The notes beneath the pieces are model-generated. The model saw only the letters and a list, made by a program, of their open reading frames with translations, did not search any database and was not told the DNA's origin. A program made the translations under genes and the position numbers. Positions 26,909 to 30,781 of a stretch of 64,000 nt of DNA are shown piece by piece. Source of the DNA: Halapricum desulfuricans (GTDB taxonomy: Archaea > Halobacteriota > Halobacteria > Halobacteriales > Haloarculaceae). The stretch lies in the NCBI RefSeq assembly GCF_017094465.1, contig NZ_CP064791.1, positions 2,294,001 to 2,358,000 on the forward strand, in the 5' to 3' direction. How positions within the stretch are numbered: position 1 is the first letter of the stretch; each line of letters starts with the position of its first letter.

Positions 26909-27316
26909 TTACTTGTCCAGGAAGTCCGGTTTCGAGACGCGATCGCGACTGTCGGCGTCCGGACGGTCGAGGATTTTCGCCTTGTCGAGGGCCGCAGGCA
27001 GGCGGTTCTGCCCGCCGGTCGGCACCTCGTCGCGTTCGACGGTGACCGTCTCGCCCTCGACCAGTTCGGACCAGACGTCGTCCTCGTCACCGTTGTCGCT
27101 CTCGTGGCGTTTCTTTTTGGCCTTGTTCTTGCCCTCTTCGAAGGCCAGCTCGACGATACTCCGGTTGTAGGAGCTGTCCATCTCGGCGACAATCCGCTCG
27201 TACTCCTCGGAGTAATCGTGGCCGAACGACGCCGCGACACCGATGGCGAACGCGCGGCTCATCGCCCCGTCGCGATCGAGCGATTCCCAGTCGGTGTCGT
27301 AGGTCTGTTCGTACAT
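26909..27316 (-). CDS. Hypothetical protein downstream of the RAD55/KaiC-like gene
   Basis: 135 residues, not recognised with certainty. The first half is a helical region (AFAIGVAASFGHDYSEEYER, SIVELAFEEGKNKAKKKRHE) that is suggestive of a haloarchaeal DUF; the second half contains VWSELVEGETVTVERDEVP, a basic-acidic hinge and a Lys/Asp-rich tail. It starts one base after the RAD55-like gene stops, so it is translated from the same mRNA. A role with that ATPase is inferred only from this coupling. Confidence 0.6.
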   Translation of the reverse strand: MYEQTYDTDWESLDRDGAMSRAFAIGVAASFGHDYSEEYERIVAEMDSSYNRSIVELAFEEGKNKAKKKRHESDNGDEDDVWSELVEGETVTVERDEVPTGGQNRLPAALDKAKILDRPDADSRDRVSKPDFLDK

Positions 27317-27317
27317 G

Positions 27318-28031
27318 TCAGCTCTGTATCTTCTCGTCGGTGTGGACCATCAGCCCGCTATCGCTGAAGGAGATTCGACGGATGTCACAGTCGATGGCCG
27401 TACCGCGCATCTTGATCACCTGAATACCGCGGGTCATCCCACCGGACTCCAGGTAGTTGTGGAAGAAGATGACGCCGTGGGCGAGGTAGTGCTCGTCCGA
27501 GTACGCTGAGGGATCGGTCATCTCCGAGATCAGTATGATCGTCGTGTCGGTCTGTTTCAGCGCCGAGAGGAAGCCGGTGATCTCCTGGTTGGCGTCCGAG
27601 AAGAAGTGCTGGAGCAACATCGTCGAGTCGATCACCGCACGGTCGATGTCGTTCGAATCGAGAAACGCGACCAGCCGGTTGGTCAGTCCACCCTCGTGGC
27701 CGAACTGCGTGATGGTCCGCTTGCCGCTCTCGGTGACCAGATTGAGGAACTGGACGGCGTCGGACTGCATGGCCTTGTCGAAGCCGAAGTCGAACCCGGC
27801 CATGTCCTGCATCAGTTCCTCCTTGGTCTCGTGCATCGTCACGTACAGGCAGTTGTCGCCCTGCTTGGCGCCCTGGGTGATGAACTGCGAGGAGAAGGTC
27901 GTTTTCCCGCTGCCCGGCGGTCCGCTCACGACGTACAGTCGCTGTGGGAGCAAGCCGCCGTCGACGAGCTCGTCGAAGCCGGGAACGCCACTCGAGATGC
28001 GCATGTCCGAAACAGCGTGACCTCGCGACAT
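27318..28031 (-). CDS. RAD55/KaiC-like ATPase
   Basis: 237-residue RecA-fold ATPase. Walker A is GPPGSGKT (residues 37-44) preceded by FDELVDGGLLPQRLYVVS, typical of KaiC/Gvp-like RAD55 proteins. VYVTMHETKEELM-like CLYVTMHETKEELMQDM follows, Walker B is in DRAVIDSTMLL, and LKQTDTTIILISEM is the next strand. Haloarchaeal RAD55-family ATPases often work in signalling. It is encoded 40 bases downstream of the DUF7504-like gene in one direction with the receiver-GAF protein, forming a four-gene set. Confidence 0.85.
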   Translation of the reverse strand: MSRGHAVSDMRISSGVPGFDELVDGGLLPQRLYVVSGPPGSGKTTFSSQFITQGAKQGDNCLYVTMHETKEELMQDMAGFDFGFDKAMQSDAVQFLNLVTESGKRTITQFGHEGGLTNRLVAFLDSNDIDRAVIDSTMLLQHFFSDANQEITGFLSALKQTDTTIILISEMTDPSAYSDEHYLAHGVIFFHNYLESGGMTRGIQVIKMRGTAIDCDIRRISFSDSGLMVHTDEKIQS

Positions 28032-28071
28032 AGATGTTTCTGCATTGTTCCCAAGAGTGATAACTCCCCCG

Positions 28072-28725
28072 TCACGGGACCGGATGCCAACCGTCGGGCT
28101 GGTCGGGCAGCCCGCGGACCCGAAATTCCGGGCCATCGTCACCCTCTCGAACGATCACGCGAGCGTCGAACGCCTGCGCAACTGTCGCGAAGGCCTCGTC
28201 GTCGATCGCGTCGGGATCGATCGCGAACACGCCGAGTCCGTCGGCGGTCCTGATCCGGCCGGTAACAGTATGCAAGAATCGATAGACTGCCCGGAAGTCC
28301 TCGGCGAATGCAAGCAGCGTCGGGATCGAGTACAGCCCGACCCGTGCTCGGTCGACGCCGCTCTCGCGCAGCGATTCGTACAGCGAGGAGAACTCGATGC
28401 CGATGCCCGTGAGGTCGCTCGGCCCCGAGACCTGCCTGACAGCGCCGGTCGACTCCGGACTGTGGTCGGTGCAGTCGATGACACACATCCGGCTGGGGTC
28501 GAACGTGTGCCCGGCCGTCTCGTAGTCCTCGATGATGCTGACTCCGTCCTCGTCGGCCGAGACGAACAGCAGACCCTCGCCCTCGTCGGCCCCGGTGACC
28601 ATCGAGAGCAGGAGTCGCTGGGTCCCGACCAGCGGCGGGCCGGTGAGCAACAAGTTCGTTCCGGCGTCGACCGGATCGAGCGGCAGTTCCGGGAACGCGT
28701 ATGCGTCCTGTAGTTGGGCCGTCAT
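28072..28725 (-). CDS. DUF7504-like degenerate RecA-fold protein
   Basis: 217 residues. It resembles the RAD55/KaiC fold (TNLLLTGPPLVGTQRLLL near residue 23-40, LLFVSADEDGVSII, VIDCTD, GIGIEFSSLYESL), but the Walker A lysine is absent: the loop reads GPPLVGTQ, not GxxxxGK[ST]. It is thus likely a non-hydrolysing partner of the neighbouring RAD55-like ATPase. The name DUF7504 is from memory of haloarchaeal annotations. Its start overlaps the stop of the receiver-GAF gene by 4 bases (ATGA), so synthesis of both is coupled. Confidence 0.7.
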   Translation of the reverse strand: MTAQLQDAYAFPELPLDPVDAGTNLLLTGPPLVGTQRLLLSMVTGADEGEGLLFVSADEDGVSIIEDYETAGHTFDPSRMCVIDCTDHSPESTGAVRQVSGPSDLTGIGIEFSSLYESLRESGVDRARVGLYSIPTLLAFAEDFRAVYRFLHTVTGRIRTADGLGVFAIDPDAIDDEAFATVAQAFDARVIVREGDDGPEFRVRGLPDQPDGWHPVP

Positions 28726-29654
28726 TTGATCCCCTCGTGATCGGGTTTCGGAACGGCCCGCTCGACGTCCGAGAGCCGTCGGCGCAGTTCCAGTTGCTCC
28801 ATCAGTTCCTCGGCGAAGCGGTGCAGATCCTCGATGTCGTCGTCGGAATACGACCGGGGCTCGTCGTGGATGAGGCACATCGCGCCGATCGGAAGCCCAT
28901 CGGGAGTCGTCAGTGGCACGCCCGCATACGATCGGATGTCCAGCTCCGCAAGGACCTCAATGTCGGCGAACCGCGCGTCGGACTGGACGTGTTCGACGAT
29001 CAGGTGTTCGTCCTCGAGCAGTGTGTGGCTACAGATAGCGTCCTCACGGTCGAGGCGGTCCCAGTCGGCCCCCTTGCAGGCGAGAAACCGCTCCTCGTGT
29101 GCGTCGACGATCCCGACGAACGCGACAGCGACGTCGAAGTGGTTGGCGAGCAGTTCGGTGAGACGATCGACCGCCGTCGTCGCCTCGAGGTCGTCGACAT
29201 CGTAGCGCTGGATGGCCGCCAGTCGCTCGTCTTCTGTCTCCGGGAGGGGGTAGGCGAGCTGGCTGCGTTCGTCGAGGACGTTCCGGACGAGCCGGGCCAG
29301 CGACCGGACCGGGTCCGGGATGTCTCGCGGGAGGTATTCGACGACGGCGTCCCGCGCAGCCCCAGTGTGGATCGCATCCGGCCCGACGTCGGTGTAGAGG
29401 ATACAGGGAACGTCCGGGCGGTCGTCTCTGAGCCGGTCCAGCAGGTCGATCCCGGTGGCATCGGACAGTTCGTACTCGGTGACGACGCAGTCGATTGCGT
29501 CGGCTTCCAGCGTCTCAATCGCCGTCGAGAGGGAGCTGCAGGTCCGGACGTCCACGTCGAGCAGCGGAGACGCTTCGAGATCGGTCCGCGTCTCCAGGCA
29601 CGCCTGCTCGTCGGGGTCGACATAGAGGAGTGAGACGGCCTCGTCGCCTGACAT
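28722..29654 (-). CDS. Receiver-like plus GAF domain signalling protein
   Basis: 310 residues. Residues 8-125 are a response-regulator-like domain (SLLYVDPDEQACLETR, CVVTEYELSDATGIDLL, PCILYTD), then a GAF domain at about 150-290 (ETTAVDRLTELLANHF-type helix, FVGIVDAHEERFLACKG, ICSHTLLEDEHLIVEHVQSD, YAGVPLTTPDGLPIGAMCLI). The phosphoacceptor aspartate is replaced by Glu60 (TEYEL), and the conserved lysine of the active site is Arg110. This suggests phosphorylation-independent signalling. First gene of the four-gene set with DUF7504-like, RAD55-like and hypothetical proteins. Confidence 0.8.
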   Translation of the reverse strand: MSGDEAVSLLYVDPDEQACLETRTDLEASPLLDVDVRTCSSLSTAIETLEADAIDCVVTEYELSDATGIDLLDRLRDDRPDVPCILYTDVGPDAIHTGAARDAVVEYLPRDIPDPVRSLARLVRNVLDERSQLAYPLPETEDERLAAIQRYDVDDLEATTAVDRLTELLANHFDVAVAFVGIVDAHEERFLACKGADWDRLDREDAICSHTLLEDEHLIVEHVQSDARFADIEVLAELDIRSYAGVPLTTPDGLPIGAMCLIHDEPRSYSDDDIEDLHRFAEELMEQLELRRRLSDVERAVPKPDHEGIK

Positions 29655-29758: not shown

Positions 29759-30781
29759 GTGCCGGATAGCGACGACGGTCCGCACGCGCCGGAGGTGTCG
29801 CCCGTGACGAGCGAGATGACCGAGATCACGGTCGTCGGCGAGGACGACACCGGACTGATCGCCAACGTCACCTCGCTGTTGTTCGAGCGTGGCATCAACA
29901 TTGAGGACCTCGACCAGGCCGTCCGGGAGGGAGTCTTCCGGATGACGATGCACGTCGACACCGGCGAGATGGTCTGTACGGAGGCGAAACTCCGCGAGGA
30001 CCTCCGAGAGCTGGGCGACGAACTCGACGTCGACATCAAGGTCCGCTTCCCGAAAGACCGGGAGACCCAGTCGATCGCCGTCCTCGTGACGAAGGAATCG
30101 CACTGTCTGGAAGCGATCTTCGAGGCCTGGGCCAGCGGCGAACTCGGGGCCGACATCGACGTGGTGATCGGCAACCACTCCGACCTGGAGCCCCTCGCCG
30201 AGAAGTACGAGGTCCCGTTCCACGACATCGGCGACGAGAAGGGCACGCCCGACGAGGCGGAGCTGCTCGATCTGCTCGAGGAGTACGACTCGGATCTGAT
30301 CGTACTGGCCCGATACATGCGCATTCTCAGCCCGGACGTCGTCTTCCGGTACGAGAAACAGATCATCAACGTCCATCCGAGCCTGCTGCCCGCGTTCCCG
30401 GGCGCGTCGGCGTACATGCAGGCCATCGAGGAGGGCGTTCGTATCGCCGGCGTGACCGCCCACTACGTGACGACCGACCTCGATCAGGGGCCGATCATCA
30501 CCCAGCGCGCGTTCAACGTCCCCGACGACGCCACCGAGGAACAGCTCCAGCGGATCGGCCAGCCGCTGGAGGCCGAAGCACTGCTTGAAGCGATCAAACT
30601 CCACCTCGACCAAGAGGTCTCGGTCCATCGCGGCCGCACGAAGCTCCGCAACCCCGAAGAAACCGACGCGCAGTTGGGCGCACCGGAGCAGCTAGACGAA
30701 CTCACTCCCGACCGGCCGGTCGACGGGCTCGGGGAGTTCCTCGCGGAGCAAGACGACGCCCAGGCCGAAGCCGACGACTAG
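29759..30781 (+). CDS. purU: Formyltetrahydrofolate deformylase PurU-like protein (ACT + formyltransferase)
   Basis: 340 residues. An ACT domain (VVGEDDTGLIANVTSLLFER, near residue 24-95) precedes a PurN-type formyltransferase domain with VIGNHSDLEPLAEKYEVPF, the catalytic Asn/His in INVHPSLLPAFPG and the catalytic Asp in HYVTTDLDQGPIITQ. This is the PurU order; it would release formate from 10-formyl-THF or act in purine synthesis as PurN does. The C-terminal 45 residues are acidic and extra. The start is uncertain: GTG 29759, or ATG 29816 (MTEITVV), which fits family members better. Confidence 0.83.
   Translation: MPDSDDGPHAPEVSPVTSEMTEITVVGEDDTGLIANVTSLLFERGINIEDLDQAVREGVFRMTMHVDTGEMVCTEAKLREDLRELGDELDVDIKVRFPKDRETQSIAVLVTKESHCLEAIFEAWASGELGADIDVVIGNHSDLEPLAEKYEVPFHDIGDEKGTPDEAELLDLLEEYDSDLIVLARYMRILSPDVVFRYEKQIINVHPSLLPAFPGASAYMQAIEEGVRIAGVTAHYVTTDLDQGPIITQRAFNVPDDATEEQLQRIGQPLEAEALLEAIKLHLDQEVSVHRGRTKLRNPEETDAQLGAPEQLDELTPDRPVDGLGEFLAEQDDAQAEADD

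Follow-up and report, generated by a model that had tools for sequence, protein, structure and literature searches.

Two separate two-gene units, a pseudo-receiver-GAF/DUF7504 pair and a KaiC-like/small-protein pair, probably brought together by rearrangement in Halapricum desulfuricans

Four tightly packed genes lie on the minus strand of the window, the 64,000-nucleotide stretch of the Halapricum desulfuricans genome that was analysed here. They most probably represent two separate, widely conserved two-gene signalling units that came to adjoin through a chromosome rearrangement in a few Halapricum strains, and we assign this reading a probability of about 0.7. The first unit (pair A) encodes a receiver-GAF protein and a DUF7504 protein, and the second unit (pair B) encodes a KaiC/RAD55-like protein and a small protein. 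The coordinates, the ATGA overlap and the 40- and 1-base gaps of the four open reading frames were as given in the initial annotation of this locus. The features are as follows.

29780-30781, plus strand: purU (ACT and formyltransferase domains), divergent neighbour.
28722-29654, minus strand: receiver-GAF gene (pair A, gene 1), 310 aa; Pfam Response_reg 3.9e-9, GAF 2.2e-14.
28072-28725, minus strand: DUF7504 gene (pair A, gene 2), 217 aa; 4-base ATGA overlap with the receiver-GAF gene; Pfam DUF7504 9.3e-33.
28029-28063, minus strand: predicted promoter element of pair B, within the gap; TTATCA(N4)TGGGA and BRE/TATA-like GAAACATCTATG.
27318-28031, minus strand: KaiC/RAD55-like gene (pair B, gene 1), 237 aa as annotated; 40-base gap to the DUF7504 gene; Pfam KaiC 4.5e-41.
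26909-27316, minus strand: small-protein gene (pair B, gene 2), 135 aa; 1-base gap to the KaiC-like gene; no Pfam family.

Both pairs are inherited as units. When the receiver-GAF protein was used as the sole query, a DUF7504 gene was found directly downstream of the receiver-GAF gene at 30 of 30 loci, the window's own locus counted. The same arrangement was found at 60 of 63 loci of a wider receiver-GAF set, which was partly seeded by DUF7504 searches. The small protein was detected in 72 and the KaiC-like protein in 73 of the 195 genomes of the order, and their genes were adjacent in 72 of these 73 genomes. Receiver-GAF homologues were present in 52 of the 195 genomes (E<=1e-40). At that threshold, 24 of the 52 pair-A genomes had no pair B, and 45 of the 73 pair-B genomes had no pair A. 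Both pair-A genes are under purifying selection, with a dN/dS (NG86) of about 0.18 between this genome and its congener G198, and the value was 0.08-0.15 for the pair-B genes.

The two pairs are far apart in every other genus examined by coordinate comparison. Within Halapricum, the order purU-A-B was found only in this genome and in G198. In the congener G196, pair A adjoins purU and pair B is located 580 kb away, and in the draft genome G197 the two pairs fall on separate contigs. Pair B directly follows purU in G109, G195 and H. hydrolyticum, with no pair A in between, and purU marks the empty site there. In other Haloarculaceae, pair A is flanked by purU and purS/Q, with purC further out in most cases, and pair B precedes DUF5789, a PHP gene and one more small gene. 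A rearrangement in the ancestor of some Halapricum would have joined the purU-A end to the block carrying pair B, and a later loss of pair A in some species would have left purU next to pair B. The adjacency of the two pairs in this genome and G198 does not argue for a joint function of the four proteins, although selection may act on it in these two species.

The initial annotation had read the locus as a single switch gated by a GAF ligand, with the receiver as a constitutive phosphomimic, the RecA-like protein as a dead subunit, the KaiC as the active ATPase, and the small protein. The four genes run in the same direction and are closely spaced in this genome and in G198, the KaiC pair of Halorubrum and its relatives is followed by another DUF7504 subfamily, and the two pairs occur together somewhat above chance (28 genomes observed versus about 19.5 expected, a comparison not corrected for phylogeny). 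However, the pairs are apart in G196 and everywhere else, pair A is missing beside pair B in G109, G195 and H. hydrolyticum, pair B has a separate predicted promoter element, and Glu60 of the receiver is not conserved as Glu. We therefore consider a four-protein switch very unlikely. The four-gene module is rejected by synteny, since the gene order, whose conservation in other haloarchaea the initial annotation had proposed to check, is not kept among relatives; separation of the genes elsewhere, which the initial annotation had named as refuting its reading, is what was observed. A partnership of the active ATPase with the inactive one is likewise not supported, the two being unlinked by descent. 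Such a switch would in itself not matter, as there is no conserved unit behind it.

The place of pair A between purU and purS/Q raises a different explanation, namely that pair A regulates purine or one-carbon metabolism. The order purU-A-purS/Q is found in Haloarcula-like genomes, in Halapricum G196 and in other genera of the family. Yet no purC, purU or purS/Q was found near pair A in any sampled family other than Haloarculaceae, and in the window purC lies about 6 kb and purS/Q about 25 kb from pair A. Inherited synteny within one family suffices as an explanation. A purine-related role is therefore unlikely, and the purine-cluster link was set aside as a clue to the function of pair A because it is limited to this family. 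In the Halomicrobium-like genomes G172 and G103 (L196, L197), the receiver-GAF gene is gone and the DUF7504 gene (GPSLGGLR) still lies between purU and purS/Q.

The second protein of pair A belongs to DUF7504 (PF24336) with a score of 114.6 bits against a gathering cut-off of 27 bits, and it has further weak Pfam scores for DUF7090, DUF835 and KaiC. The DUF7504 profile matched the structure of KaiC (8zn5, 5.7e-10) and also those of RecA, SSO2452 and ArlH. In hhalign, its match to the profile of the pair-B KaiC family reached 95%. The DUF7504 protein is thus a predicted KaiC/RecA relative, and these profile matches back the RecA-like fold that had been proposed for it. The fold assignment comes from sequence profiles only, since the AF2 model of DUF7504 (nine sequences) was unusable with a pLDDT of 46. 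Hits to DUF7504 also came from other lineages of the phylum.

The DUF7504 protein of the window carries GPPLVGTQ in place of the Walker A motif, with Thr where Lys belongs, as had been noted previously, and Tyr132 at the position of the Walker-B Asp. The Walker-A Lys was found in none of the 60 paired DUF7504 proteins versus 41 of the 49 unpaired ones, a contrast that reflects one evolutionary event and not independent replicates, so that its Fisher value gives no independent support. Two of the unpaired proteins that lack Lys (L171 and L228) actually have as neighbour a receiver-GAF gene that is broken or differently spaced. In the case of L171/L193 (G197:C231), frameshifts or errors of assembly interrupt the receiver-GAF gene in a draft that is 78% complete, and the neighbouring DUF7504 gene is intact. 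Of the 41 Lys-bearing DUF7504 proteins, 18 have the Walker-B Asp, and essentially none of those without Lys do. A tree of 107 DUF7504 proteins required two changes in pairing and three changes at the Lys position. This points to a single origin, with the loss of the Walker Lys together with pairing as one ancient event, after which the receiver gene was lost once in Halomicrobium-like genomes. Repeated independent loss of the Lys with pairing was rejected on the same tree.

Some P-loop proteins bind nucleotide without a Walker-A Lys. A DUF7504 protein that lacks this residue could therefore still bind ATP through other contacts, under the control of the GAF protein. This would fit the paired proteins of the GPxxxGAR class, which largely retain the glycines G29 and G34 of the P-loop. 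However, no P-loop is left in a second class of paired DUF7504 proteins (GDDxxALE), and the Walker-B Asp is absent as well, which makes ATP binding rather unlikely. The GDDxxALE class comprises L094, L097, L100-L102, L105, L108-L110, L112, L115, L203 and L204.

The first protein of pair A has a receiver (REC) fold according to Pfam (Response_reg, 37.1 bits versus a cut-off of 30.2 bits), followed by a GAF domain at residues ~159-285. In its receiver domain, Glu60 (within CVVTEYEL) and Arg110 were read in the sequence as the initial annotation had stated, and Thr88 is kept. Among the 63 homologues, position 60 is occupied by Glu in 43, Ala in 14, Asp in 2, Gly in 2 and Ser in 1, with a gap in the remaining 1. 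Thr88 is present in 59 of the 63, and position 110 is Lys in 36 and Arg in 23. The receivers found at other loci in the genus kept the Asp in 10 of 15 cases, one of the 15 being a fragment of the G197 orthologue. Thus, the predicted loss of key residues held across haloarchaeal homologues for the phosphoacceptor Asp and for the Walker-A Lys of the paired DUF7504 proteins, but not for position 110, where more than half of the homologues have Lys.

On the receiver-GAF tree, position 60 changed between Glu and not-Glu about ten times. Since Glu was gained or lost this often, mostly against Ala, it is the absence of Asp that was kept and not Glu. Phosphomimicry through a conserved Glu60 was rejected on these grounds. 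Judged from the alignment and the tree, the phosphoacceptor, and probably phosphorylation with it, was lost for good across the subfamily, with no requirement for a negative charge. The GAF domain of the pair-A protein is similar to a GAF domain from a bacterial diguanylate cyclase (4zmu, 4.9e-16); its residues Cys193, Cys208 and Cys260 are conserved in 93-98% of the family.

For pair A, co-inheritance, the loss of the phosphoacceptor Asp, the Walker-A Lys and the Walker-B Asp, and purifying selection are directly supported, and the idea of a GAF-ligand switch is reasonable for this pair alone. The most likely working of pair A would be a protein-protein switch driven by a GAF ligand, without phosphotransfer or ATP hydrolysis. 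The receiver would serve as a fixed docking surface, and the GAF domain would bind a small ligand. Ligand binding would alter the complex with DUF7504, which would act as a non-hydrolysing adaptor and transmit to a target. A bolder version is that the pseudo-receiver-GAF protein and the pseudo-KaiC form a ligand-gated adaptor, independent of phosphorylation and ATP, that is widespread in haloarchaea and would supply inactive subunits to KaiC-family rings. It is hinted at by the separate DUF7504 genes beside KaiC genes in Halorubrum, and we regard it as doubtful.

The KaiC-like protein of pair B corresponds to the intact KaiC/RAD55-like ATPase described in the initial annotation: Walker A (GPPGSGKTT), the catalytic Glu (His67-Glu68) and Walker B (Asp135-Ser136) are invariant in 17 homologues. 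It is a predicted single-domain ATPase, probably of the CirD type. The AF2 model of the small protein was confident over a helical domain (residues 1-87), which is followed by a disordered tail that ends, according to the alignment, in a conserved PxFL motif. The fold search gave no significant PDB match for the small protein. For pair B, co-inheritance, intact motifs and a conserved promoter element are directly supported. From the pairing and the anatomy of the two proteins, the small helical protein may bind and target the KaiC-like ATPase. Pair B is most likely unrelated to pair A. In Halorubrum and relatives (L027, L030, L032, L033, L153-L160), a different, Walker-Lys-bearing DUF7504 is encoded by the third gene after the KaiC and small-protein genes. 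This DUF7504 subfamily hints that there may be a general connection between DUF7504 and KaiC.

Upstream of the KaiC genes, a conserved TTATCA(N4)TGAAAA is followed by BRE/TATA-like AAACATCTATA. The strict pattern was found upstream of the KaiC gene at 17 of 39 loci, all of Haloarculaceae type, against a background of 0.005 per 130 bp. The TTATCA(N4)TGAAAA element precedes the KaiC TATA box in L123-L142 and L161, and Halorubrum shows related forms (TTCTCA(N4)TGAAAA). In the window, the element lies within the 40-base gap with its right half changed (TTATCA(N4)TGGGA), and pair B thus keeps its own predicted promoter element inside the gap. Invariance among the KaiC-like homologues begins at Met10, and the annotated ATG of the gene overlaps the TATA-like box. 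Therefore, the true start is probably Met10 at 28004, which would widen the gap to about 67 bases.

The pair-B element is similar to TATCA(N4)TGATA, the CsmR motif of Haloferax volcanii (PMC13286277). Two perfect TATCA(N4)TGATA palindromes were located close upstream of genes elsewhere in the genome, at G000:C1:1968449-1968462 (L288) and G000:C1:2540661-2540674 (L293), and both are possible candidate sites of a CsmR-like regulator.

Single-domain KaiC homologues have been studied in Haloferax volcanii, where no phenotype was reported beyond light-dependent cir expression; the qPCR primers for cirD encode FDELI and FINLVS, and a hypothetical gene flanks cirD (PMC3941300). The Haloferax elongans orthologue of the pair-B KaiC contains FDQLI and FINLVS at the spacing of about 230 bp of the cirD primers, with 3 and 5 base mismatches, and no carrier of the exact H. 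volcanii primer pair was found among 392 genomes. CirD and the pair-B KaiC both consist of a single KaiC domain with an intact Walker A motif, their probable orthology being deduced from the primers alone.

The combination of a pseudo-receiver with a KaiC-like protein that lacks the ATP-binding lysine is a real but modest find. It provides the first functional context for DUF7504, a Pfam family of unknown function, and pair A represents a subfamily that has long been running without phosphotransfer. Among the papers listed by a literature search, none used the name DUF7504, and the pair might already be described by Makarova et al. 2017 in their work on archaeal KaiC-like ATPases. The DUF7504 of the window belongs to a REC-GAF-linked clade without the Walker-A Lys and the Walker-B Asp, whereas other DUF7504 clades keep GPxMxGK.

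Archaeal REC-GAF regulators without an output domain are common, and the partners of REC-PAS/GAF regulators were stated to be unknown (Galperin et al. 2018, PMC5847659). Pair A is similar to these REC-GAF regulators in architecture, in the lack of an output domain and in the expected protein-protein contact. It differs from them in that the phosphoacceptor is lost subfamily-wide and the partner gene, DUF7504, is genetically fixed. This fixed pairing makes DUF7504 a named candidate partner for REC-GAF regulators without an output domain. In methanogens, REC domains are fused to inactivated KaiC (iKaiC, DUF835; PMC5847659, table of output domains), so that, as in pair A, a receiver is coupled to an inactivated KaiC-fold protein. 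In contrast to iKaiC-REC, pair A is haloarchaeal and encoded by separate genes, contains DUF7504 instead of DUF835 (with a weak DUF835 score only), and has a receiver that is also dead. Pair A is thus a haloarchaeal two-gene variant of the REC and inactivated-KaiC theme.
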